This document shows, piece by piece, positions 732 to 13,738 of a stretch of DNA of 21,584 bases. The position numbers and the translations under genes are program-made. The first letter of the stretch is position 1. Each line of letters begins with the position of its first letter. The stretch is from positions 6,955 through 28,538 of the IMG/VR virus record IMGVR_UViG_3300001460_000133. The stretch is one strand, 5' to 3'. Below the pieces are notes generated by a model that was given only the letters and a program-made list of their open reading frames with translations, was not told where the DNA came from and made no database searches. Origin of the DNA: a virus.

Positions 732-756
732 AAGCCCTCTTTTTGAGGGTTTTTTG
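732..756 (+). terminator. Rho-independent terminator after the protease gene
   Basis: A hairpin with stem CCCTC (735-739) and GAGGG (745-749), a five-T loop, and a run of six Ts immediately after. The A/T flanks can extend the stem. It lies 30 bases after the protease stop and separates this gene from the scaffold gene. Confidence 0.85.
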
Positions 757-767
757 TATCTTAAAAT

Positions 768-854
768 ATTTCCATATATGTATGATCATAATACACCATC
801 TCTTATATGGTGTCAAAAATAAAATAATCCCTATTACGGTTCCTAATAACCGTA
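768..854 (+). promoter_or_regulatory. Structured leader before the scaffold gene, with possible promoter
   Basis: This stretch between terminator and scaffold ATG holds three consecutive inverted repeats. They are the perfect palindrome TATGATCATA at 781-790, a hairpin ACACCAT/ATGGTGT (793-799 with 807-813), and a hairpin TACGGTT/AACCGTA (835-841 with 848-854). ATATGTAT at 777-784 resembles the putative late-promoter core and also occurs just after two other terminators in the window. The hairpins have no U-tract, so they do not look like terminators. They may shape scaffold mRNA stability or translation. No coding sequence is seen in 704-878. Confidence 0.45.
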
Positions 855-2145: not shown

Positions 2146-3774
2146 ATGAGTTTACAAACTTTATTAGAAAGTGCAAATCCCTACCACTCAGTACAGAGTG
2201 ATGCAGCCAGATTATCTGGTAAGTGGGAAAAAACAGGTTTGTTAGAAGGTTTAGGTGGTGCTTCAAAAAGCAACATGGGAATGATTCTAGAAAACCAAGC
2301 AAAACAACTTGTAGTAGAAAGTTCACAAACTGGTGGAGGTGCTGCTTCACAAGGTAACTTTACTGCGGGTATTGGTGGACAATGGGCTGGTGTAGCTCTT
2401 CCATTAGTACGTAAAGTATTTGGACAAATTGCTGCTCAAGAATTCGTATCAGTACAACCAATGAACTTACCTTCAGGTCTAGTATTTTTCTTAGATTTCC
2501 AATATGGAACTGATAAAACTCCATTCTCTGCAGGTTCTTCATTATATGGTGATGCTGCTGCTGATGGATCAACAGATCCTTTCGGTAACACAGCTGATGG
2601 TGGATTATATGGAGCTGGACGTTTTGGATATTCTATCAATAATACATCTTCACAAGCTGCTGGATACGCTTCAGCATCAGCTGACTGGTCAGATGTTAGA
2701 TTTGATTCATCAATTTCTGCTTCCGTAGCAGCTGGTAATTATCTAAAATTCCAAGTACAAAAAACAGCTTTACCTGTAGGAGATTTTGCAGGAGTTAGAG
2801 GATTTTCATTAGTTACTGGTTCTGCAGATACTGTAGTATCTGTACCAGCATATACAACTGATGATAGTACTAACGTATACTTTATTGTATTAGAAGCAAA
2901 TGTTACTGCTGGTGGTGCTGTAAAAGTAAAATACCAATTACAACCAACTGATCAATATAGAGGTGATTTCGAAGATGGAAACAATGCTATCAACGGAAAT
3001 AATACTCCAATTCAAATTCCAGAAATCAATGTACAGATGAAATCATCTGCTATCGTTGCTAAAACTAGAAAATTGAAAGCTGTATGGACGCCAGAATTTG
3101 CACAGGATTTAAATGCATATCATGCATTAGATGCTGAAGCTGAATTAACATCTATCTTAAGTGAGTACATTTCACTAGAAATTGACTTAGAGATTTTAGA
3201 TATGTTATTAGAAAGCGCTGCTGCTGGAAATGAAGTATGGTCTGCTGTAAATAACAGAGCTATTGCTGATAATGGTACTACTGGTGTAATAACAGATCTA
3301 AACTTTTACAATAGTCAAGGACAATGGTTCCAAACATTAGGAACTAAAATCCAAAAACTAAGTAATATCATTCACCAAAGAACATTAAGAGGTGGTGCAA
3401 ACTTCCTAGTATGTTCTCCATCTGTAGGAACTATCCTAGAATCTATTCCAGGATTTGCTGCAGACTCAGATGGTGATGTTTCTAAAGCTACTTACGCTTT
3501 TGGTGTACAGAAAGTAGGTACAATAAACAGTCGTCAGAAAGTTTATAAAAACCCATATATGAAGGAAAACCAAATCCTATTAGGATTTAGAGGATCTCAG
3601 TTCTTAGAAGCTGGTGCCGTATTTGCTCCATATATTCCATTAATTATGACTCCATTAGTATACGATCCAAATACCTTTACTCCAAGAAAAGGCCTATTAA
3701 CTCGTTATGCTAAGAAAATGGTACGTCCAGAATTCTATGGTACAATTAGTATAAATGGTTTAGATACTCTATAG
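2146..3774 (+). CDS. 23: Major capsid protein (T4 gp23-like)
   Basis: This protein forms the hexameric shell of the head. It is 542 aa, near T4 gp23 (521 aa). Residues 1-60 look like the N-terminal propeptide, containing the MILEN element around 46-50 that is common in this family. Two glutamates fit the gp21 cleavage preference ([L/I/V]-x-E): Glu49 and Glu58. Glu58, just before a Gly/Ser-rich stretch, is the better candidate. The conserved capsid block follows: VALPLVRKVFG, VQPMNLPSGLVFF and the adjacent aromatic sequence (about residues 83-125). The C-terminal half carries the family's conserved ALDAEAELT and PYIPLIMTPLVYDP regions. It sits directly after the scaffold gene and ends at a strong terminator. 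No separate gp24-like vertex gene is seen here. Confidence 0.95.
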   Translation: MSLQTLLESANPYHSVQSDAARLSGKWEKTGLLEGLGGASKSNMGMILENQAKQLVVESSQTGGGAASQGNFTAGIGGQWAGVALPLVRKVFGQIAAQEFVSVQPMNLPSGLVFFLDFQYGTDKTPFSAGSSLYGDAAADGSTDPFGNTADGGLYGAGRFGYSINNTSSQAAGYASASADWSDVRFDSSISASVAAGNYLKFQVQKTALPVGDFAGVRGFSLVTGSADTVVSVPAYTTDDSTNVYFIVLEANVTAGGAVKVKYQLQPTDQYRGDFEDGNNAINGNNTPIQIPEINVQMKSSAIVAKTRKLKAVWTPEFAQDLNAYHALDAEAELTSILSEYISLEIDLEILDMLLESAAAGNEVWSAVNNRAIADNGTTGVITDLNFYNSQGQWFQTLGTKIQKLSNIIHQRTLRGGANFLVCSPSVGTILESIPGFAADSDGDVSKATYAFGVQKVGTINSRQKVYKNPYMKENQILLGFRGSQFLEAGAVFAPYIPLIMTPLVYDPNTFTPRKGLLTRYAKKMVRPEFYGTISINGLDTL

Positions 3775-3802: not shown

Positions 3803-3828
3803 AACCCGGCTTTATGCCGGGTTTTTTT
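3803..3828 (+). terminator. Rho-independent terminator after the major capsid gene
   Basis: A perfect 8-bp stem AACCCGGC (3803-3810) / GCCGGGTT (3816-3823) with loop TTTAT, followed by a T run. This is the most GC-rich hairpin in the window, placed 28 bases after the capsid stop. It ends the head operon. Confidence 0.95.
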
Positions 3829-3836
3829 ATCTTTTT

Positions 3837-3853
3837 TATATGTATAATAAAAT
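3837..3853 (+). promoter_or_regulatory. Candidate promoter upstream of the PhoH-like gene
   Basis: TATATGTATAATAAAAT lies immediately after the capsid terminator and differs by one base in the core (G for T) from the AATATTTATAATAAAAT element before six other genes. The leader to the PhoH-like ATG is about 120 bases, AT-rich, and contains the palindrome TATAGCTATA at 3885-3894. No credible gene lies in 3775-3970. Confidence 0.45.
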
Positions 3854-3970: not shown

Positions 3971-4708
3971 ATGGCAAGTAAACACCATACGGATGATGTA
4001 TATCGTCCCAAGAGAATTCCTAAAAACCCAATTAAGTTCAAACTCCAACTTAATGACGAACAAAAAGAAGCAAAATCTACAATACTTAATAATACCGTCA
4101 CGCTCTTAGGAGGTAGTGCTGGTAGTGGAAAAACATTACTTGCATGTAATGTTGCCCTAGATGGTTTATTACGAAGACAATATGATAAAATCATAATAAC
4201 CAGACCTACAGTATCAAAAGAAGAAATAGGATTTCTACCAGGGGATTTAAGAGAAAAAATGGATCCTTGGGTACAGCCTATTTATCAAAATTTTTATCAA
4301 TTATATGATAAATCTAAAGTTGAAAAGCTTATTGAAGATGGTAAAATAGAAATTGTTCCCGTATCGTTTATGAGAGGTAGGACATTTTTAGATTCAATGA
4401 TTATTGTTGATGAAGCACAAAATGTTACTCACCAACAAATGGAAATGATTACTTCACGTTTAGGGTTAAGAAGTAAAATGATGGTGTGTGGTGACGCTCA
4501 ACAAACAGATTTAAAGAAAAAATCGGATTCTGGTTTTAAATTCTTATATGCTGCGGCAAGAAAAATTAAAAATTTAGAAGCAATTACTTTAACTACTAAC
4601 CACAGAAATGAAATAGTTGAAGATTTATTAGAATATTACCAAGAAGCAATTGATAAAGGTATATCAATTACAACATCAGGTTCTTATATTTATAATAATA
4701 AAAAATAA
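3971..4708 (+). CDS. phoH: PhoH-like P-loop ATPase
   Basis: PhoH-family ATPases are common phage accessory genes; a nucleic-acid helicase/RNase-linked role has been proposed for the family, but the phage function is unsettled. The 245-aa protein has Walker A GGSAGSGKT at residues 47-55, the family motif IITRPTVSKEEIGFLPGDL from about 75, Walker B MIIVDEAQN at 143-151 and the sensor-like GDAQQTD at 174-180, followed by THRN-type sequence near the end. All expected motifs are intact and there is no extra nucleic-acid-binding domain (no PIN, no KH), as in short phage versions. The ATG at 3971 is chosen because homology begins soon after. It is inserted between capsid and neck genes, and a promoter-like element precedes the next gene right after its stop. 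Confidence 0.93.
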   Translation: MASKHHTDDVYRPKRIPKNPIKFKLQLNDEQKEAKSTILNNTVTLLGGSAGSGKTLLACNVALDGLLRRQYDKIIITRPTVSKEEIGFLPGDLREKMDPWVQPIYQNFYQLYDKSKVEKLIEDGKIEIVPVSFMRGRTFLDSMIIVDEAQNVTHQQMEMITSRLGLRSKMMVCGDAQQTDLKKKSDSGFKFLYAAARKIKNLEAITLTTNHRNEIVEDLLEYYQEAIDKGISITTSGSYIYNNKK

Positions 4709-4711
4709 TTT

Positions 4712-4728
4712 AATATTTATAACAAAAT
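4712..4728 (+). promoter_or_regulatory. Putative late promoter element before the gp13-like gene
   Basis: AATATTTATAACAAAAT, with core TATTTATAA at 4714-4722, starts 20 bases before the ATG at 4734. It belongs to a set of six near-identical elements at gene starts. A partly similar run, TATTTATAAT, also occurs at 4687-4696 inside the end of the PhoH-like gene. Confidence 0.55.
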
Positions 4729-4733
4729 AAATT

Positions 4734-5873
4734 ATGGCAAATATACCTATCTGGCCCGGCAGTAGTTCATTTAGCCCAGGAGATACTCCTTTTGGGTTTT
4801 ACGATGCAGATACTGATTTTCAAACAGATGCCGATAAAGTATCAATATTTTGTTCTAGAAGGCTAGGATATCCTTTAGTTGATGTAGAATTACAAAATAT
4901 AAGTTTTTATGCTGCTTTTGAAGAAGCAACTACTACTTATGGTAATGAATTATATTCATATTTAATTAGAGATAATCAATTATCACTTGAGGGGTTAACC
5001 ACCTCTTCAAATTTAAATACAGAATTAATAGCACCTAATTTTGAACCTATTGTTAGATTAACAGAGATGTATGGTGCTGAAGCTGGAACTGGTGGGAATA
5101 TTCCTTATTATAGTGCTTCTATAGATACAATTGCCTACCAACAAGATTATGATTTAAATAAAAACCTTACAACGGGTACATTAGGTATAGAAATTAAAAG
5201 AGTATTCTATGAACCAGCACCTGCTTCTCAAAAATTTTATGACCCTTATGTAGGAACTGGATTTGGTACTATGAATATGTTTGATAGTTTCGGATTTGGG
5301 GGAATGAGTCCTGCTATTAATTTTTTAATGATGCCCTTAAATTATGATTTAGCTGTTATCCAACAGATAGAAATGAGTGATACTATTCGTAGATCTAATT
5401 ACAGTTTTGAAATACATGATAATAAATTAAGAATATTTCCTGTACCAATTTCAGGAAGTGGGAAAATTTGGTACGAATATATTAAAAGAAATGATAGAGT
5501 TGATTCTTCAAAAGTAGTAGGTGGGGATGTAATTACTAATGTATCAAATACTCCATATACTAACCCAAATTATAACCAAATAAATAGTGTAGGTAGACAA
5601 TGGATTTTTGAATATACTTTAGCATTAGCAAAAGAAGTATTAGGGTATGTAAGAGGAAAATACGGAACTATTCCAATACCAGATTCTCAAGTAACATTAA
5701 ACCAATCAGATTTAATAGCTGCTGCGACAGCAGAAAAAACGGCATTAATTGAAAGATTAAGGTCTTACTTAGATGAAACATCACGTAAATCATTATTAGA
5801 AAGAAGAGCACAAGAAGCAGAATTTAAACAAACGGAATTAAAACAGGTCCCGTACACAATTTATATAGGATAA
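4734..5873 (+). CDS. 13: Neck protein (T4 gp13-like)
   Basis: A head-completion/neck component that, with gp14, seals the filled head and provides the tail-docking site. It is 379 aa, longer than T4 gp13 (309 aa). The region around residues 36-76, with CSRRLGYPLVDVELQ and AFEEATTTYGNELY, is the signature I recognise from marine T4-like gp13 proteins. A central glycine/phenylalanine-rich stretch (about residues 175-200, GTGFGTMNMFDSFGFGGM) looks like an added flexible loop. The C-terminal helix is Arg/Glu-rich. It is followed by the gp14-like gene with a one-base gap. The 13-14-15 order matches T4. Confidence 0.85.
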   Translation: MANIPIWPGSSSFSPGDTPFGFYDADTDFQTDADKVSIFCSRRLGYPLVDVELQNISFYAAFEEATTTYGNELYSYLIRDNQLSLEGLTTSSNLNTELIAPNFEPIVRLTEMYGAEAGTGGNIPYYSASIDTIAYQQDYDLNKNLTTGTLGIEIKRVFYEPAPASQKFYDPYVGTGFGTMNMFDSFGFGGMSPAINFLMMPLNYDLAVIQQIEMSDTIRRSNYSFEIHDNKLRIFPVPISGSGKIWYEYIKRNDRVDSSKVVGGDVITNVSNTPYTNPNYNQINSVGRQWIFEYTLALAKEVLGYVRGKYGTIPIPDSQVTLNQSDLIAAATAEKTALIERLRSYLDETSRKSLLERRAQEAEFKQTELKQVPYTIYIG

Positions 5874-5874
5874 T

Positions 5875-6405
5875 ATGGCAATGTTTGGTAGACAAAGAGA
5901 TGTTAGTTTAATACGACATCTTAACCGTGAATTAATGGGTAATATTATTACCCAACAAGCAGCTATTTATAAATATAAATTAGAAGAAACGGTTACTAAT
6001 ATATATGGTGAAGCTGCCGGAGAAAAATTTTACAATGGTCCTTTCTTATTTGATGTATTATTATTAAGACAACCACAACTTTATCCTGAAGATGCTATTG
6101 GTATAGAATATGAAAGAAGTATTAGATTTGCTTTTTTAAGAGATGATTTAGTAGATGCAAATGTAGTTCCTGAAGTTGGTGATATTGTTTTGTATCAAAA
6201 TAACTATTATGGAGTCCAACAAACAATTACAAATCAATATTTTGTAGGCAAAAACCCAGAATATCCAAATAATGATTCAGATGGTACACCAAACCCACTA
6301 AACCCAGGATTAGAAGAATTTGGTACTAACTTATCTATAATACTTGAAACTTATTACATTCCTAGAGATAAAGTAGCAATTTCACCTTATAAAGAAAGAT
6401 TTTAA
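5875..6405 (+). CDS. 14: Neck protein (T4 gp14-like)
   Basis: Partner of gp13 in the neck. The 176-aa protein is shorter than T4 gp14 (256 aa), as in many marine relatives. The N-terminus, RDVSLIRHLNRELMGNII, fits the family (aromatic/basic start, NREL helix). The middle contains GEAAGEKFYNGPFLFDVLL and the beta-rich PEVGDIVLYQNNYYGVQQ region, near which DNPEYPNN-like loops are expected. It starts one base after the gp13-like stop and the next gene starts directly after its stop, so translation is probably coupled. An alternative start codon (ATG at 5881) lies two codons downstream and cannot be excluded. Confidence 0.85.
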   Translation: MAMFGRQRDVSLIRHLNRELMGNIITQQAAIYKYKLEETVTNIYGEAAGEKFYNGPFLFDVLLLRQPQLYPEDAIGIEYERSIRFAFLRDDLVDANVVPEVGDIVLYQNNYYGVQQTITNQYFVGKNPEYPNNDSDGTPNPLNPGLEEFGTNLSIILETYYIPRDKVAISPYKERF

Positions 6406-7329
6406 ATGCCAAACTTTAAACCATATCCAAAAACACAAAAAGAAATTAGCATGTCTCAGCAAACAGCTTATGACAAAGAAATAGGTAATCCTAATACCCC
6501 AGCTAATCCTAATGAATCTCAAACTGGAATAGATTTTAATAGATCTTCTAAATTAACTTCAAAAGGAGATACATATAAACCTTTTTCTATTGGTATTCAA
6601 GATTTAGATGAAGCTGTTTTTTATTATTTTAATCAAGTAATAAAACCTTTTGTTTATCAAAATGGAGAAAGAAGAGAAGTACCTGTTATCTATGGTAGTC
6701 CCGAAAGGTGGAAATCATTTCAACGTGATGGGTATTATAGAGATGATTCTGGGGCTGTAATGCTACCAATTTTAGTATTAAAAAGAGATACAATAACAAA
6801 AGATAGATCAACATATAATAAATTAGATTCAAACATGCCTAATTTATATGGAACTTTTGGGCAAGGATTTAATCCAAAAAATATGTATTCTAATTTTAAT
6901 TTACTAAACAACAAAAAACCAGTAAAACAATTTGAAACCATTGCCGTTCCCGATTTTGTAAATTTATCATATAGTTGTATTATTCAAACGTATTATATGG
7001 AGCAATTAAATAGAGTTATTGAAGCAGTAGAATATGCCTCAGACTCTTATTGGGGTAATCCTGAACGTTTTAAATTTAAGGCTAGTGTTGATAGTTTTAC
7101 TACTGCTACTGAATTAACACTTAATAAAGATAGACTAGTAAAAGGTACTTTTAATATTAATTTAAGAGGATATCTTATTCCTGATATTATTCAAAAAGAC
7201 TTAAATTCTATTAAAAAATATAATTCAAAAGCTAAGGTAAGTATTACATCTGAAGTTGTATCTAACATAGATGATATAACAAGCCCAACAAATTTCCAAA
7301 ATCCTAATAGTGATGGTAGAATTAGATAA
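6406..7329 (+). CDS. 15: Tail terminator / sheath stabiliser (T4 gp15-like)
   Basis: In T4, gp15 caps the tail tube and sheath and connects the tail to the neck. This 307-aa protein has a disordered N-terminus (residues 1-50, Pro/Asn/Thr-rich). A conserved block follows at about 60-120, containing DEAVFYYFNQVIKPFVYQNG, EVPVIYGSPERWKS and PILVLKR. A second block at about 175-220 has a beta-strand and YMEQLNRVIEAVEY helix, before a final NLRGYLIPDI strand. This layout matches gp15. An internal ATG at 6451 (Met16) could also serve as start, since the first 15 residues are low-complexity; I kept the longer form because its ATG directly abuts the gp14 stop. It is followed by a 52-base gap with a promoter-like element. 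Confidence 0.8.
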   Translation: MPNFKPYPKTQKEISMSQQTAYDKEIGNPNTPANPNESQTGIDFNRSSKLTSKGDTYKPFSIGIQDLDEAVFYYFNQVIKPFVYQNGERREVPVIYGSPERWKSFQRDGYYRDDSGAVMLPILVLKRDTITKDRSTYNKLDSNMPNLYGTFGQGFNPKNMYSNFNLLNNKKPVKQFETIAVPDFVNLSYSCIIQTYYMEQLNRVIEAVEYASDSYWGNPERFKFKASVDSFTTATELTLNKDRLVKGTFNINLRGYLIPDIIQKDLNSIKKYNSKAKVSITSEVVSNIDDITSPTNFQNPNSDGRIR

Positions 7330-7345
7330 TTTTAATAAATTTAAC

Positions 7346-7363
7346 CATATTTATAATTATAAT
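7346..7363 (+). promoter_or_regulatory. Putative late promoter element before the 76-aa gene
   Basis: Core TATTTATAA at 7348-7356, followed by an A/T-rich run, 34 bases before the ATG at 7382. The downstream half diverges from the other elements, so it is the weakest of the set. Confidence 0.45.
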
Positions 7364-7381
7364 AATTAAAATAATCAAAAA

Positions 7382-7612
7382 ATGAGTAAAATCAAGTTAT
7401 CTGAAAGTGAGTTGCAGGAATTAAAAAAATTACAAGATAAAGGAAATGAATTAATATTTTCTTTGGGACAAATAGAGGCTCAAAAAACCACATTATTTTC
7501 ACAATTACAAGAAATTCAAGGTGGTCGTAATAAAATAGGAAAAGAGCTTCAAGATAAGTATGGAGATGGAAACATCGATTTAGAAAGTGGAGAATTTACA
7601 AAAGTAAATTAA
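7382..7612 (+). CDS. Small coiled-coil protein of unknown function
   Basis: The 76-aa protein is almost entirely predicted helix, with heptad-like spacing of Leu/Ile (LSESELQELKKLQDKGNELI, then a Gln-rich second helix). It ends in a short turn containing KYGDGNIDLESGEFT. This looks like an antiparallel helical hairpin. I have the impression that similar small proteins recur beside tail genes in related environmental phages, but I cannot name a family. It has its own promoter-like element and precedes the sheath gene. In T4 the space between genes 15 and 18 holds the terminase genes 16 and 17; this protein is far too small for gp17 and has no visible gp16 signature. A tail-assembly accessory role is a guess from position. 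Confidence 0.8.
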   Translation: MSKIKLSESELQELKKLQDKGNELIFSLGQIEAQKTTLFSQLQEIQGGRNKIGKELQDKYGDGNIDLESGEFTKVN

Positions 7613-7630
7613 TTTTTTGAAAAAATATTT

Positions 7631-7648
7631 AATATTTATAATAAAACA
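7631..7648 (+). promoter_or_regulatory. Putative late promoter element before the sheath gene
   Basis: AATATTTATAATAAAAC, with core TATTTATAA at 7633-7641, begins 38 bases before the sheath ATG. It matches the consensus at all but the last base. Confidence 0.6.
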
Positions 7649-7670
7649 TAATACTAATTAATATACAACA

Positions 7671-9713
7671 ATGGCAGAAACATTAATATCTCCCGGAGTA
7701 CTAGCAAGAGAGAATGATTCATCTCAAGTTACTCAAGGCCCAGTAGAAGTAGGAGCAGCAATAATTGGACCTACTATTAAAGGCCCTGTTGAAGTACCAA
7801 CTATAGTTACTTCATATAGCGAATATTTAGCAGTATTTGGTGGATCCGTAACAAGTGGATCTCAACAATATTCTTATTTAAACCAAATAGCAGCTAATAA
7901 CTACTTTAGACAAGGTGGTTCAACTTTATTAGTAACTAGAGTAACATCTGGTTCTTTTACTAGCGCTGCGTCTAATAATTTATTTAATCCCAGAGAAACT
8001 GGTGTAGTAGAAAGATCTAGTCTTACAGGTTCTTTTTCATTTAATAATTTACCAGCAGGTGGAGGATTTAATATTACTTCAAGTGTAGGTAATGGTCCTT
8101 CAGGGGTACAATCAGTTTTAGCAACAAGTACTAGTGGAACAGGAACAGGTATATCAATAACTGCATCATTTACTACATCTCAAAGTATAGGAGATTTTAG
8201 TTTTGGAGGAGGTACAGGATATGCAGTTAATGATACCGTAACATTTTCTTCACAATCTTTAAGTTCTAATAAAGGAAATGGTACTGATATAGTCTTTACT
8301 CTTAGAGCCCAAGACATAATTAATCAAGTTCCATTTACTTTAAGTACAATTTCTGAAGGAGCTATAATGAATAGTTCAGGATCAGAAATTTCAGGAGGTG
8401 CCTTATCAAATGGTTCCCAAGATAATATTAGATGGGAAGTAACAGCAGTTAATACTTCATCTGGAGTATTTAGTTTAGCAGTACGTAGAGGAGATGATAC
8501 TAATAACCAAAAATCAGTCTTAGAGGTATTTAATAATATGTCTTTAGACCCATTAGCTACAAATTATATTGAAAGTGTAATAGGTAATAGCTATTATGGT
8601 AATATAGAAAATGATGCTGGAGATTATTATATTCAACAGCAAGGTTCATATGTTAATAGAAGTAGATATATTTATGTTTCTAATGTTAACGCACCAACTC
8701 CACAATATTTTGATAATGCTGGAAATGCAAAATCTCAATTTACAGGAAGTTTACCTGTAATAAGTTCAGGTTCATTTGGGTCAGCTATAGGATCATTATT
8801 TCCAGGTACAGCTCCGGCTCAATTTAATGAAAACATATCAACGAGCAATGTACAAGGTATTAGTGCTTTAGATTATACTGCATCTATTAATTTATTAACT
8901 AATAAAGATGATTATCAGTTTAATGTGTTAACAGCACCAGGTTTAATACACCAATTACACCCATCACAAGTTAATTTACTTGTAACAACTGCTGAATCTC
9001 GTCAAGATTGCTTATCAGTTATTGATTTAAGAGCTTATGGTTCAACAATTGGAGGAGTAGTAGGACAAGTAAGCGCATTTGATAGTTCATATTCAGCAAC
9101 ATACTGGCCTTGGTTACAATTAGTAGACCCAGATTCAGGAAGAACAATATGGGCACCAGCTTCTACATTAATTTCAGGAGTATATGCCTTTACAGATGCA
9201 TCTTCAGACCCATGGTTCGCACCAGCAGGTTTAACTAGAGGTGGATTAGGTCAAGTAGTTAGAGCCGAAAGAAAACTAACTTCTGGAAATAGAGATAGTT
9301 TATATGAAGCAAATATTAACCCTATTGCTACTTTCCCACAAAGTGGAGTTGTAGTATTTGGTCAGAAAACTTTACAGAAAAAAGCAAGTGCTTTAGATCG
9401 TGTAAATGTAAGAAGATTGTTAATAGCTCTTAAAAGCTATATTGTACAAGTATCAGATGCTTTAGTATTTGAACAAAATACAATTGCTACTAGAAATAAC
9501 TTTTTAACACAAGTTAACCCATATCTAGAATCAGTACAACAAAGACAAGGATTATATGCCTTTAAAGTAGTAATGGATGATACAAATAATACACCAGATG
9601 TTATTGATAGAAATCAATTAATTGGTCAAATATATTTACAACCAACTAAAACAGCTGAATTTATTATATTAGATTTCAATGTACTACCAACTGGAGCAAC
9701 ATTTCCAGCATAA
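7671..9713 (+). CDS. 18: Contractile tail sheath protein (T4 gp18-like)
   Basis: This protein polymerises around the tail tube and contracts to drive injection. It is 680 aa, near T4 gp18 (659 aa). The N-terminus, ISPGVLARENDSSQ, and the following GAAIIGPTIKGPVEVPTIV region are the classic sheath start that forms the inter-subunit strand. Residues about 100-400 are Ser/Gly/Thr-rich and variable, consistent with surface domains. The conserved C-terminal domain (about residues 480-680) contains WPWLQLVDP, PSGYVAG-like aromatic turns, GLTRGGLGQV, INPIATFPQSGVVVFGQKTL, RVNVRRLLIALKS and the final FIILDFNVLPTG strand. All expected parts are present. It is directly followed by the tube gene, as in T4. 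Confidence 0.95.
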   Translation: MAETLISPGVLARENDSSQVTQGPVEVGAAIIGPTIKGPVEVPTIVTSYSEYLAVFGGSVTSGSQQYSYLNQIAANNYFRQGGSTLLVTRVTSGSFTSAASNNLFNPRETGVVERSSLTGSFSFNNLPAGGGFNITSSVGNGPSGVQSVLATSTSGTGTGISITASFTTSQSIGDFSFGGGTGYAVNDTVTFSSQSLSSNKGNGTDIVFTLRAQDIINQVPFTLSTISEGAIMNSSGSEISGGALSNGSQDNIRWEVTAVNTSSGVFSLAVRRGDDTNNQKSVLEVFNNMSLDPLATNYIESVIGNSYYGNIENDAGDYYIQQQGSYVNRSRYIYVSNVNAPTPQYFDNAGNAKSQFTGSLPVISSGSFGSAIGSLFPGTAPAQFNENISTSNVQGISALDYTASINLLTNKDDYQFNVLTAPGLIHQLHPSQVNLLVTTAESRQDCLSVIDLRAYGSTIGGVVGQVSAFDSSYSATYWPWLQLVDPDSGRTIWAPASTLISGVYAFTDASSDPWFAPAGLTRGGLGQVVRAERKLTSGNRDSLYEANINPIATFPQSGVVVFGQKTLQKKASALDRVNVRRLLIALKSYIVQVSDALVFEQNTIATRNNFLTQVNPYLESVQQRQGLYAFKVVMDDTNNTPDVIDRNQLIGQIYLQPTKTAEFIILDFNVLPTGATFPA

Positions 9714-9727
9714 AAACTAAAAAGATA

Positions 9728-9745
9728 AATATTTATAATAAAATA
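9728..9745 (+). promoter_or_regulatory. Putative late promoter element before the tail tube gene
   Basis: AATATTTATAATAAAAT (core TATTTATAA at 9730-9738) lies 26 bases before the ATG. It is a perfect match to the element before the tape measure gene. Confidence 0.6.
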
Positions 9746-9755
9746 AGAAAATAAA

Positions 9756-10244
9756 ATGGCAATATTAGATCCAAACGAAATATTTTTTACAGCTTTTGAG
9801 CCAAAACAAAAGAACAGATTTATTATGTATATAGATGGATTTCCATCGTATATGGTAAAAGGTGTTGGGGCTGTATCATTAACTCAAGGTAGTGTAGCAC
9901 TTAACCATATAAACGTACAACGTTACGTAAAAGGTAAAACTATATGGAATACAATTTCATTTACATTATTTGATCCAATTACTCCATCAGGAGCCCAAGC
10001 TGTAATGGAATGGGTAAGATTACATCACGAATCAGTAACAGGTAGAGATGGGTATTCTGATTTCTATAAAAAAGATTTAACATTTAATGTGTTAGGTCCT
10101 GTAGGTGATATAGTTTCTGAGTGGGTAATTAAAGGAGCAATGATAACAGATGCTTCATTTGGAGATTATTCGTGGGAAGATGCTGATGCTGCTCAAGAAT
10201 TAACATTCACAGTACAACCCGATTATTGTATATTAAACTTCTAA
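9756..10244 (+). CDS. 19: Tail tube protein (T4 gp19-like)
   Basis: Its hexamers stack to form the inner tube through which DNA passes. The 162-aa protein matches T4 gp19 (163 aa) in length. Family features include an N-terminal KQKNRFIMYIDGFPSYMVKG strand pair, a central TLFDPITPSGAQAVMEWV element preceding the helix, a VTGRDGY loop, and a C-terminal beta sheet ending in FTVQPDYC. It follows the sheath and ends at a terminator with a UUCG loop, so sheath and tube form a discrete transcription unit. Confidence 0.95.
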   Translation: MAILDPNEIFFTAFEPKQKNRFIMYIDGFPSYMVKGVGAVSLTQGSVALNHINVQRYVKGKTIWNTISFTLFDPITPSGAQAVMEWVRLHHESVTGRDGYSDFYKKDLTFNVLGPVGDIVSEWVIKGAMITDASFGDYSWEDADAAQELTFTVQPDYCILNF

Positions 10245-10270
10245 AAAAGTTTAAAAATATTTCAAAGAAT

Positions 10271-10298
10271 AGCTTGGCTTCGGTCAAGCTTTTTTTTA
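10271..10298 (+). terminator. Rho-independent terminator with UUCG tetraloop
   Basis: The stem AGCTTGGC (10271-10278) pairs with GTCAAGCT (10283-10290) with one G-T wobble, closing a C(TTCG)G tetraloop, followed by eight or more Ts. It ends the sheath-tube unit. Confidence 0.95.
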
Positions 10299-10302
10299 TA
10301 TT

Positions 10303-10324
10303 AATATGTATCAACGATAAAAAT
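10303..10324 (+). promoter_or_regulatory. Candidate promoter before the gp26-like gene
   Basis: AATATGTATCAACGATAAAAA lies just after the tube terminator and about 20-40 bases before the ATG at 10345. The ATATGTAT core is shared with the stretches after the terminators at 732 and 3803. The match to the main element is partial. Confidence 0.35.
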
Positions 10325-10344
10325 GTTTTAATTAAATAAAGATT

Positions 10345-11073
10345 ATGAGTGAATTTAAATTCCCAACTGAAGAAGTAGACTTACCCTCCAAAGGATTATT
10401 ATATCCTAAAGACAATCCTTTATCTAGTGGTAAAGTAGAAATCAAATATATGACAGCTAAGGAAGAAGATATTTTAACTAATCAATCTTATATCCAAAAA
10501 GGAACTGTCTTAGATAAATTACTTGAATCTGTTGTTATAAATAAATCTATAAAATTAAAAGATTTACTTATAGGAGATAAAAATGCTTTATTAATTGCTA
10601 CACGTATTTTAGGGTATGGTAAAAAATATAACGTTATATTTAAAGGAGAAACAATTGATATAGATTTAACTGAATTAGAAAATAAACCATTTGATTCTTC
10701 ATTATTAATTGAAGGAAAAAATGAACTTGCTTATACCTTACCTCATAGTAATACTAAAATTACTTATAAATTACTAAATGGTCATGATAATGATAAAATA
10801 GATTCTGAGTTAAAGGGATTACAGAAAATTCAAAAAGATAATGTGCCTGAACTAACAACAAGATTAAAACATATAATAACCTCAGTTAATGGAGACGAAG
10901 ATTCTAAATCTATTAGAGAATTTGTTGATGGGTATATGCTTGCAAGAGATTCTAGAGCTTTTCGTGAATATTTAAAAAATAATCAACCCGATGTTGATAT
11001 GTCTATTATTTTAGACAGTGGAGAGGAGGTTGAAGTTCCTTTGGGGCTAAACTTTTTTTGGCCTGACGCCTAA
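10345..11073 (+). CDS. 26: gp26-family baseplate hub / tail assembly protein
   Basis: This 242-aa protein belongs to the T4 gp26/gp51 type of baseplate-hub assembly protein. The start, EFKFPTEEVDLPSKGLLYP followed by YMTAKEEDILTNQSYIQKG (residues about 40-60), is highly typical of gp26 in marine T4-like phages. So is the end, EVEVPLGLNFFWPDA. The final codons cross a T7 run (11053-11059), after which another frame stays open for 94 codons (see 11051-11344). Gene position between tail tube and tape measure is that of tail-assembly chaperones in other tailed phages, which bind the tape measure before tube polymerisation. I therefore infer a chaperone-like role alongside the T4-derived name. Its own promoter is probably the ATATGTAT-containing stretch after the 10271-10298 terminator. 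Confidence 0.88.
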   Translation: MSEFKFPTEEVDLPSKGLLYPKDNPLSSGKVEIKYMTAKEEDILTNQSYIQKGTVLDKLLESVVINKSIKLKDLLIGDKNALLIATRILGYGKKYNVIFKGETIDIDLTELENKPFDSSLLIEGKNELAYTLPHSNTKITYKLLNGHDNDKIDSELKGLQKIQKDNVPELTTRLKHIITSVNGDEDSKSIREFVDGYMLARDSRAFREYLKNNQPDVDMSIILDSGEEVEVPLGLNFFWPDA

Positions 11074-11344
11074 TGGAGCACAACAAGCTAGATTAAATTT
11101 ATTTAACCACATACATCAAATTATTTATCATGGTAATGGTGGTTATGATTTCAACACAGTATATAATATACCAATCTGGTTAAGAAAATATATTTACAAA
11201 GAAATTAGAGACTTTAACAATTCAGCATCACAACCACCAGAAGTTACAGGTGAAAAAACATTAATAGGAAAAGATGGTAAGATTAATACCCCAGCATTTG
11301 CTAAAGCATCTCAGCCATATAAAGGAAAAAGCAGCTACAAATAG
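11051..11344 (+). CDS. Frameshift extension of the gp26-like protein (start-less ORF)
   Basis: This frame is +1 relative to the gp26-like gene. It is open from just after a TAA at 11048-11050 to TAG at 11342-11344, and overlaps the last 23 bases of the upstream gene. It has no ATG, GTG or TTG codon. The product looks genuinely coding: GAQQARLNLFNHIHQIIYHG, then a VYNIPIWLRKYIYKEI segment that resembles small proteins near gp26/gp51 in other T4-like phages as I recall them, then a polar tail. The best explanation is ribosomal slippage at the T7 run 11053-11059 (CTA AAC TTT TTT TGG). A +1 slip gives about 332 aa and a -2 slip about 333 aa of fused protein. This mirrors lambda G/GT and its equivalents. 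An indel or assembly error at the homopolymer is the main alternative. Confidence 0.75.
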   Translation, partial: TFFGLTPNGAQQARLNLFNHIHQIIYHGNGGYDFNTVYNIPIWLRKYIYKEIRDFNNSASQPPEVTGEKTLIGKDGKINTPAFAKASQPYKGKSSYK

Positions 11345-11358
11345 TTGCTTTTTTTAAT
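11326..11358 (+). terminator. Rho-independent terminator overlapping the frameshift ORF stop
   Basis: AAAAAGCAGCTA (11326-11337) pairs with TAGTTGCTTTTT (11342-11353) with one G-T wobble and a CAAA loop, then further Ts. The TAG stop of the frameshift ORF begins the 3' arm. The late-promoter-like element starts within a few bases of it. Confidence 0.85.
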
Positions 11359-11372
11359 ATTTATAATAAAAT
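11356..11372 (+). promoter_or_regulatory. Putative late promoter element before the tape measure gene
   Basis: AATATTTATAATAAAAT with core TATTTATAA at 11358-11366, 24 bases before the ATG at 11382. A terminator hairpin occupies the space where a -35 box would lie, so any promoter here must act without one, as T4 late promoters do. Confidence 0.6.
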
Positions 11373-11381
11373 ACTCTTTAA

Positions 11382-13718
11382 ATGTCTGGATCCGACGAAA
11401 TAAAAAAACAAGCCGAAGCAACAAGGGATTTAAAAAACGAAACCCAAGAAAATCTCAGATATACAAGAGATATTAATAGTGAAATTCGTGATTCCCTTAA
11501 ACTATTAACAGGTGAAAAAGATTTACGTTCATCAACTCTAAAAGCTTTAAAAGAAGCTAATAGTTTAGCTGAAAATCAAGTTGACTTTGCTAAAGCAGGA
11601 TCTAAAGCTTTAATGGACTCTAATGCACTTAGAGAAAAGCAAATAACTTTCCAAAAAAATATTAGTAAATTAACAGCAAATGCTGATGATTTAACTAAAA
11701 AAAGACTAATGGCTCAAAAAGATCTTCAAGCTAATATGTCTAAAATGTCGGAGAAAGACATTAAAAAAGCCCAGCAACAAATAGATCTTTCTCTTAAGTC
11801 TGAAAAAGCACTACAAGGTCAAGCTACAAATCAAAAAGAAAATAAAAAATTATTAGACCAACAAGTATCAGCTGCTGATGAACTTAATAGTTTAGGTAGT
11901 AACAAATTATTTGGGTCTCTTTCGGACATAGCTAAAGCTATTCCTGGTGTTGGTGGTTTAACTAAAGGATTTGACAAAGCAGCAGAGGCCTCTAAAAAGA
12001 TAGGAGCTGATGTATTACAGAAAAAACTAGAAGCTGGAGAAGATGCTTCTCTTAGTATGGGAGAATCGTTATCTGTTGGTTTTAAAGGAGCAGCAGCTGG
12101 AGCAAATGAATTATTAAAAGCTTTTGGACCTATAGCTATTCTGGCAAAAGTATTTCAGGGTATGATGGCAGCAGATAAATCTGCTGGGGAGATAGCTAAA
12201 GGTTTAAATATAAGTACTAAAGAAGCAGGTAAACTATCTGCAGAAATGATATCAACTTCTCAAAGCTCTAAAGAATTAGGAGTTACTTATGAAGGACAAA
12301 AACATGCCCTAAAAGCTATTAATGCTGAATTGGGTACTTCTACAATGATAAGTGCTAAAACCTTAGCTACTTTTTCCCAATTAGAAAAGGTAGCAGGAAT
12401 GACCCAAGAAGAAATGATGGGTATAGGTAAACTATCTTTTGCCACAGGTAAAGATATGAAAAAGATGACAGGAGAATTTTTAGCTCAAGCTAAATCTGCT
12501 TCTTTAAAACAAGGAGTACTACTAAATGAAAAGAAACTAATGGCTGATATATCTAAAGTATCAGCAGCTACAACCTTATCATTAGGTAAAAATCCTAAGG
12601 CAATAGCAAATGCTGTAGCAACAGCTAAAGCTTTGGGTATGGAAATGTCTAAAATAGAAGGTATAGCTGATAGTTTACTTGATTTTGAATCATCCATTGA
12701 AAATGAAATGCAAGCTGAGCTATTATTAGGTAAAGATCTTAATTTAGAAAAGGCAAGAACAGCTGCATTAAATAATGATATGGCTACTGTAGCAGAAGAA
12801 ATTGCTAAACAAGCAGGAAATGCCGCTGATTTTGGAAAACTAGGTAGAATAGAACAACAAGCACTAGCAGCTGCTGTTGGAATGGGTAGAGAAGAATTAG
12901 CTAATATGTTGTATACCCAAGAACAACTACAAGGATTAACAGAAGATGAAGCCACAAAGGCACAAGAAGCATTAGATAAAAGAATTGAAGAAGTAGGAGT
13001 AAAACAAGCTCAACTGGAATTAGAAAAGGATGGTTTTAACGGACTTATAGCTCAAGCTTCTGAAGCAGAAAAAATAAAATTAGCTTCTGAAAAAACAAAT
13101 GAAGCTTTTATGGCGGCAGGTAAAAATCTTTTACCTGTAGTAGAAAAAATGACTGAGTTAGCTACCCTTGCTTCTAGAAATTTAGAATATATGTTAGCGG
13201 CAGTTGCTATATACAAAACATATCAGGCATATCAAAAAGTATCATTATTATTAGAAAAAAGAGGAATAGCTTTAAAAGGCAAGGGAATTGGTAAACAAAT
13301 AGCTACCTTAGCTATAGAGGCAGCAAATTCAGTTGCAAAAATACCGGTAATAGGAGCTGTATTAGCAGTAGCGGCAGGTCTAGGTGCATTTGCTCTTGGT
13401 AAAAGTTTATTAGGAAAAGGCGAATCAGTAGGAGATCTTAACTCACCTGCAAGTGGTATGACACAAGTTTCTACAAAAGAAGGAGGGTTATTTAATTTAT
13501 CTCCAAATGATGATATTGTAGCAGCCCCTGGGGCATCTGCGGCATTAGCAAATGCACAAAGTAGTGGTAAAAGCCCATCTATGCAAAAGTTAGAAGCACT
13601 ACAATCTCAAACAAATGCTTTATTAAGTCAAATACTTTCTAAACAAGGTACTGTACAAATGGATTCCGAAGAGGTAGGTACAGCAGTAGCTATGAATACT
13701 TATGAAATTTCAACTTAA
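11382..13718 (+). CDS. Tail tape measure protein
   Basis: This protein sets tail length and fills the tube lumen before ejection. At 778 aa and about 1.5 angstrom per residue, the known scaling predicts a tail near 115 nm. Residues about 1-170 are Lys/Glu/Gln-rich and strongly helical (coiled coil). Residues about 230-270 and 654-682 are hydrophobic (the latter PVIGAVLAVAAGLGAFALG) and could insert into a host membrane. Residues 270-560 are Ala-rich helices. The C-terminus contains EGGLFNLSPNDDIVAAPG and a second short coiled coil before an Asp/Glu-containing end, a layout common in myophage tape measures. T4 gp29 (590 aa) is the positional counterpart, but I see no sequence match to it. It lies directly after the gp26-like frameshift pair. 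Confidence 0.85.
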   Translation: MSGSDEIKKQAEATRDLKNETQENLRYTRDINSEIRDSLKLLTGEKDLRSSTLKALKEANSLAENQVDFAKAGSKALMDSNALREKQITFQKNISKLTANADDLTKKRLMAQKDLQANMSKMSEKDIKKAQQQIDLSLKSEKALQGQATNQKENKKLLDQQVSAADELNSLGSNKLFGSLSDIAKAIPGVGGLTKGFDKAAEASKKIGADVLQKKLEAGEDASLSMGESLSVGFKGAAAGANELLKAFGPIAILAKVFQGMMAADKSAGEIAKGLNISTKEAGKLSAEMISTSQSSKELGVTYEGQKHALKAINAELGTSTMISAKTLATFSQLEKVAGMTQEEMMGIGKLSFATGKDMKKMTGEFLAQAKSASLKQGVLLNEKKLMADISKVSAATTLSLGKNPKAIANAVATAKALGMEMSKIEGIADSLLDFESSIENEMQAELLLGKDLNLEKARTAALNNDMATVAEEIAKQAGNAADFGKLGRIEQQALAAAVGMGREELANMLYTQEQLQGLTEDEATKAQEALDKRIEEVGVKQAQLELEKDGFNGLIAQASEAEKIKLASEKTNEAFMAAGKNLLPVVEKMTELATLASRNLEYMLAAVAIYKTYQAYQKVSLLLEKRGIALKGKGIGKQIATLAIEAANSVAKIPVIGAVLAVAAGLGAFALGKSLLGKGESVGDLNSPASGMTQVSTKEGGLFNLSPNDDIVAAPGASAALANAQSSGKSPSMQKLEALQSQTNALLSQILSKQGTVQMDSEEVGTAVAMNTYEIST

Positions 13719-13721
13719 CCC

Positions 13722-13738
13722 AATATTTATAATAAAAT
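13722..13738 (+). promoter_or_regulatory. Putative late promoter element before the 52-aa gene
   Basis: AATATTTATAATAAAAT with core TATTTATAA at 13724-13732, 23 bases before the ATG at 13747. It fills nearly all of the 28-base gap after the tape measure stop, which argues that it is functional. Confidence 0.6.

Follow-up and report, generated by a model that had tools for sequence, protein, structure and literature searches.

Many virion gene starts in a group of T4-related myoviruses carry a -35-less promoter-like box that may be read by a gp55-like phage sigma factor

A recurrent element ahead of virion genes in a 21,584-nucleotide (nt) stretch of viral DNA (the window; positions 6,955 to 28,538 of the 28.5-kb IMG/VR record IMGVR_UViG_3300001460_000133, GC content 31%) is best explained as a late promoter class that lacks a -35 element and is served by a gp55-like phage sigma factor of changed specificity, a reading to which we assign a probability of about 0.7. 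The consensus box is wATATTTATAA[T/C]AAAA and lies mostly 20-40 nt upstream of an ATG. As a promoter class the element is well supported, and as a gp55-like sigma system it is moderately supported; that transcription from it is late, where exactly this transcription starts and which factor reads the box are what we infer. The window encodes a prohead protease, major capsid protein, PhoH, head-tail adaptor, tail sheath, tail tube, hub and wedge, and its carrier is a T4-related myovirus. Among cultured phages, the Flavobacterium phages immuto stand nearest to it (47% identity in the sheath), and Shine-Dalgarno sites are rare (2-5% of gene starts), as in Bacteroidota, whose gene starts lack them (PMC6847099); on these two grounds the host probably belongs to the Bacteroidota. 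The group of phages that shares the box is large, and most of its members are uncultured.

In the window, the core TATTTATAA begins at 4714, 7348, 7633, 9730, 11358 and 13724, which places it 20, 34, 38, 26, 24 and 23 nt from the ATGs at 4734, 7382, 7671, 9756, 11382 and 13747, respectively, in full agreement with the six elements and distances given in the original prediction; its caveat that the 9-mer also occurs inside genes, near 5964 and 17424, is likewise correct. The corresponding plus-strand boxes, scored with a position weight matrix (PWM), precede the genes for the head-tail adaptor gp13 (4712..4727, 21.3 bits), a 76-amino-acid (aa) protein (7346..7361, 14.6 bits), the tail sheath (7631..7646), the tail tube (9728..9743), a long 778-aa protein that by position is the tape measure (11356..11371), and a 52-aa protein together with the unit after it (13722..13737), each of the last four boxes scoring 21.2 bits. 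The immuto site orthologous to the box at 13722..13737 stands ahead of gp036, directly past the immuto tape measure gene. With up to three mismatches allowed, the 17-mer has 10 matches in the window against 2.8 expected from dinucleotide shuffles (maximum 8 in 100 shuffles), and the core is found 11 times on both strands against 2.5 expected (maximum 6). Seven of the nine plus-strand copies of the core fall 10-50 nt upstream of a gene start, a zone that makes up 3.2% of the window (binomial p = 1.2e-9).

The enrichment extends genome-wide to the relatives of the phage. Across 80 related contigs collected via the tube protein, in which the loci are homologous and the counts hence not independent, the coding strand holds 308 copies of ATATTTATAA and the opposite strand 3, where a third-order Markov model predicts 18.1 and 15.9, respectively. 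The same 10-mer ranked first in a k-mer count made without a preselected motif on 454 upstream regions of five records (G001, G002, G003, G005 and immuto; loci L089-L108), being present in 63 regions against 1.33 expected. When a weight matrix was trained without G002 and immuto and applied at a cutoff of 12 bits, G002 yielded 28 coding-strand matches and 1 on the opposite strand (1.4 expected per strand), 24 of the 28 lying 9-50 nt upstream of a start, and immuto yielded 13 and 0 (0.8 expected), 11 of them upstream of a start. Boxes of immuto_2-6A (NC_055915.1) are found at 128572, 146993 (sheath), 149172 (tube) and 153828. Chance matches could have been suspected in a genome of this composition, with 9-mers also falling inside genes; the shuffles, Markov models, held-out genomes and strand bias exclude them, and we give this explanation virtually no weight.

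Conservation follows the individual genes. The heptamer TTTATAA precedes the tube gene in 81 of 81 relatives (TATTTATAAT in 65 of them), the sheath gene in 53 of 62, gp13 in 11 of 12 and the 76-aa gene in 33 of 62, while for five genes inside units TATTTATAAT was found in none of the 15 to 38 relatives available for each. The genes downstream of the TATTTATAA class encode tail fibre, tail spike, portal, head-tail adaptor, sheath and tube proteins, and many are of unknown function. No information peak is present 18-30 nt upstream of the box, so that there is no conserved -35 element, and the window shows no excess of sigma-70-like hexamer pairs (64 against 78 expected). An Escherichia coli-type TATAAT reading of AATATTTATAATAAAAT was considered and rejected: 30% of sites have C in place of the final T, and this part of the box is lost in the phage Mel-JY01.

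Mel-JY01, a more distant relative, lacks ATATTTATAA. It carries ATATTTAT followed by other bases ahead of orthologous virion genes, namely in the portal region and before the gene that follows the major capsid gene, the sheath unit, the tube gene and the next gene. In all, 18 coding-strand sites fall 12-60 nt upstream of starts; because the core is kept there with other bases after it, the box core seems to be older than its tail. This phage (PP395634.1; L287-L290) is listed as a Microcystis phage, yet it is a relative of the Flavobacterium phages and has a Bacteroidota-like upstream motif, CGTATATTTG (5 against 0.06 expected), but Shine-Dalgarno-like sites at 30% of its starts; its host assignment deserves a check.

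The element is best read as a rightward promoter that points along the genes, given the 308:3 strand bias, the tight spacing to the ATG, the position directly after terminators and the conserved A-rich tail on the gene side of the box. From the box start to the downstream ATG the distance is 27 +/- 8.5 nt (bounded by the 9-50 nt selection), whereas the distance to the previous gene end has a standard deviation of 201 nt. Four plus-strand intrinsic terminators, each with a T tail, lie immediately upstream of boxes: one with a 14-pair stem that ends the upstream unit at 11324..11355 and abuts the box at 11356, and three with 8-pair stems that follow the tail tube gene (10271..10290), the major capsid gene (3803..3823) and the prohead protease gene (732..752). 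The boxes at 777, 3839, 10305 and 11358 each begin 3-25 nt past one of them, and overall a terminator is found upstream of 8 of 67 boxes compared with 15 of 368 other starts (Fisher p = 0.015).

These directional features leave the original prediction's comparison with a T4 late box read in reverse complement unsupported. The core's reverse complement is exactly the T4 sequence TATAAATA, and late promoters of cyanophages have the consensus NATAAATA (PMC2984593), from which one might propose T4-type late promoters on the opposite strand, firing leftward. However, nearly all genes run rightward, so that leftward transcription would enter the upstream gene in antisense and, from the box at 11356, would begin inside the terminator; it is also the rightward distance to the ATG that is constrained and not the distance to the upstream gene. 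On this evidence the reversed T4 box was rejected and leftward firing is very improbable; the reverse-complement identity need not mean anything. In six genomes, moreover, opposite-strand ATATTTATAA is scarcer than expected (2 against 8.5, p = 0.009), which may reflect selection against antisense promoters. In the direction of the genes the box is not the T4 late sequence: TATTTATA has 6 of 8 positions in common with TATAAATA and differs from it in the two central bases, and on the coding strand TATTTATA has 109 copies, 71 of them 10-50 nt before a start, compared with 36 copies of TATAAATA, 10 of them before a start.

The nearness of the start codons, together with Bacteroidota-type starts that lack Shine-Dalgarno sites, could also suggest that the element serves translation or RNA processing as part of the leader and is no promoter. 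We consider this quite unlikely, for the distance to the ATG varies from 11 to 48 nt, genes inside units are translated too and lack the element, the element stands directly past terminators, and the A-rich -3 context is common to gene starts in general.

A second promoter class accompanies the box. The same k-mer count returned TTCGTATATT 23 times against 0.11 expected, and the class has the layout TTTGG-N16-TTCGTATATTTA, in which a conserved TTTGG lies ~16 nt upstream of TTCG and is found upstream of TTCGTATATTTA in most sites. The primary sigma factor of Bacteroidota has the -33/-7 consensus TTTG / TANNTTTG (PMC6847099), and the second class fits these elements, -33 TTTG and -7 TAnnTTTG, with the final -7 position mostly A and not G; it looks like an early promoter of the host sigma-A. 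The conserved TTCG directly ahead of its -7 box is unusual. Genes downstream of this class encode DNA polymerase, single-strand binding protein (SSB), QueC and a DnaB-like protein. The virion blocks of G001 contain 14 late-type sites and 1 early-type site, and the remainder of that genome contains 6 and 16 (Fisher p = 1.2e-4), a comparison that is descriptive in that the block limits were set after the sites had been seen.

An alternative is that the boxes, too, are read by the host sigma-A holoenzyme, perhaps modified by a phage co-activator that stands in for the -33 contact, as with AsiA/MotA in T4, and that no dedicated phage sigma is involved. The box and the host -7 element overlap (nATATTTA versus TAnnTTTG), in a register that is also that of the early -7 element TATATTTA of the phage, and the two classes are merged at one site of immuto, ahead of gp065 (TTCGTATATTTATAATAAAA). 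Yet the near-invariant host T-12 is T in just 22% of late boxes and the host G-5 is A in 100% of them, a TTTG signal at -33 is missing upstream of the late box, the late box adds the conserved tail TAA[T/C]AAAA, and the two classes occupy different genome blocks. Reading by the host sigma-A appears unlikely on balance, and a phage sigma remains our preferred reader.

A candidate for such a sigma was found among the relatives. Searching ten records with Pfam sigma region 2 gave two weak matches only (E = 0.006 and 0.009), which fall on orthologous genes of the two near-complete relatives. The conserved protein is encoded at L090:28174-28872 (immuto gp118) and L096:15920-16624, and in the cultured immuto phages it is annotated only as 'hypothetical protein'. 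The 234-aa candidate of G001 is conserved in immuto gp118 (45%), Mel-JY01 (39%) and LR756508 (41%). In an alignment of 22 members, Sigma70_r2 is the Pfam family matched by the most members (14) and the gp55 family the PHROGs family matched by the most (11), all below threshold. The Sigma70_r2 score in the search of the ten records was 13.6 bits against a curated cutoff of 24, and the best E among the 22 members was 0.01. Profile comparison with hhalign against 30 gp55 sequences gave P = 2.2e-5 and a probability of 76%, collinear over the first 117 residues; a first comparison with 7 gp55 sequences had given 5.5%, and the value improved with the 30 sequences and two distant members. Single members against Pfam and the family profile against PDB sequences (both HMMER) had no significant match, and the sole significant match of the G001 protein in PHROGs was a family of unknown function.

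An AlphaFold model of the candidate (predicted local distance difference test, pLDDT, 72.7) superimposes on sigma domain 2 of 5h6x (Z 9.1, 93 residues, 2.5 A) and 5wur (Z 9.2, 3.0 A), and nearly all of the structural matches listed are sigma factors, with the comparison tool's own warning that a middling Z can arise by chance for helical folds; Foldseek alone found no match at E <= 0.001. Judged from the model, the candidate is predicted to have the sigma-70 region 2 fold. The best-conserved stretch of its C-terminal part, KKALYIYIREMTDCETPxLTKV, looks like a helix-turn-helix, though the promoters are without a -35. In G002 the candidate gene (L098, G002:9462-10164) is split over two frames with a stop near residue 30, and is either broken or bears a sequencing error. 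The gp45 clamp domains PF02916 and PF09116 had no match in the ten records, which include the complete immuto genome, though a diverged clamp could escape this search; immuto has a family A DNA polymerase. Of the distinct late sigma system suggested in the original prediction, what stands is that relatives encode a predicted gp55-like sigma, and what falls away is the route to it through the reverse-complemented box.

Several observations weigh against the preferred reading. The sequence-search evidence for the sigma lies entirely below curated cutoffs and its model is of moderate confidence; the gene is absent from the 28.5-kb record of the window. LR756508 has no such box around its sheath gene, though it encodes the sigma homologue. 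A few boxes stand ahead of unknown or non-virion genes (NAD synthetase-like). The major capsid gene (window 2146-3774) has no box within 80 nt, and no TATTTATAAT precedes it in any of six relatives examined; it is probably transcribed from the promoter of the scaffold gene, for which the sole candidate is the weak box at 777.

That weak box (TATGTATGATCATA, 775..790, plus strand, 8.8 bits) is one of four window sites beyond the six originally listed. It lies past a terminator with the scaffold gene 102 nt downstream, and its assignment is tentative. A strong G-variant, TATGTATAATAAAA, at 3837..3852 (plus strand, 17.5 bits), past the terminator that follows the major capsid gene, is a candidate phoH promoter with a long leader. 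At 10303..10318 (plus strand, 5.6 bits), past a terminator and 40 nt from the ATG of the baseplate-hub gene at 10345, the weak variant TATGTATCAACGA is found, and relatives carry variants of the form TAT[TG]TAT at its place. An exact copy of the core begins at 4687, within the 3' end of phoH (box 4685..4700, plus strand, 16.8 bits), with the gp13 box 27 nt further on, and several relatives, G001 and G002 among them, have the same copy; either a tandem promoter or protein-coding constraint on ...SGSYIYNNK may account for it.

Taken as a late promoter class, the single -10-like box would give rise to rightward transcripts that start a few bases downstream and provide the virion genes with short leaders. 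Most likely, the box would be read by the host RNA polymerase carrying the sigma-like protein of the phage (gp118 in immuto, 234 aa in G001), which as a distant gp55-type sigma would recognize the box through its domain 2. The host sigma would act first at the TTTGG-N16-TTCGTATATTTA promoters and the phage's own sigma later at the boxes. We tentatively suggest, at somewhat short of even odds, a separate branch of late transcription that combines a gp55-derived sigma of changed box specificity, an added C-terminal domain, a Bacteroidota RNA polymerase and no T4-type sliding clamp; if such a branch exists, its late transcription would not be coupled to replication in the T4 way. A search of the literature available to us found no description of the motif in phages. 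If correct, the proposal supplies a consensus with which late genes and transcription units can be called in a common, uncultured group of aquatic phages, names a protein to test, and offers a natural case for asking whether late transcription of the gp55 type needs clamp coupling. The capture of the Bacteroidota polymerase by a T4-type sigma would be of mechanistic interest because the primary sigma of Bacteroidota is unusual (PMC6847099).

Among known systems, T4 late promoters (gp55 with gp33 and gp45; PMC2988020) share the single A/T-rich box at the -10 position, the missing -35 and the placement ahead of virion genes, and the candidate sigma is collinear with the N-terminal region of gp55. 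Unlike in T4, the central bases of the box are TT instead of AA and a conserved A-rich tail is added; the candidate is longer than gp55 (about 230 versus 185 aa), with an extra C-terminal helical part; and the gp45 clamp, on which T4 late transcription depends, was not detected, though a diverged clamp could be missed. The system appears to work like T4 late transcription but, with a different box and no clamp detected, should not be filed as a T4 system. Cyanomyovirus late promoters (NATAAATA; PMC2984593) likewise serve late genes of T4-related phages, in this case marine ones with a gp55, but their coding-strand box differs and their gp55 is found directly by sequence search, unlike the candidate here. 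With the primary-sigma promoters of Bacteroidota (PMC6847099) the late box shares A-11 and T-8 T-7 T-6, and the phage's other class matches them, whereas the late box is without -33 TTTG, T-12 and G-5. Phages of the phiEco32 / 7-11 type (PMC8948821) are an unrelated group; what they have in common with the system proposed here is the strategy, in which a phage-encoded sigma redirects the host RNA polymerase to phage promoters.

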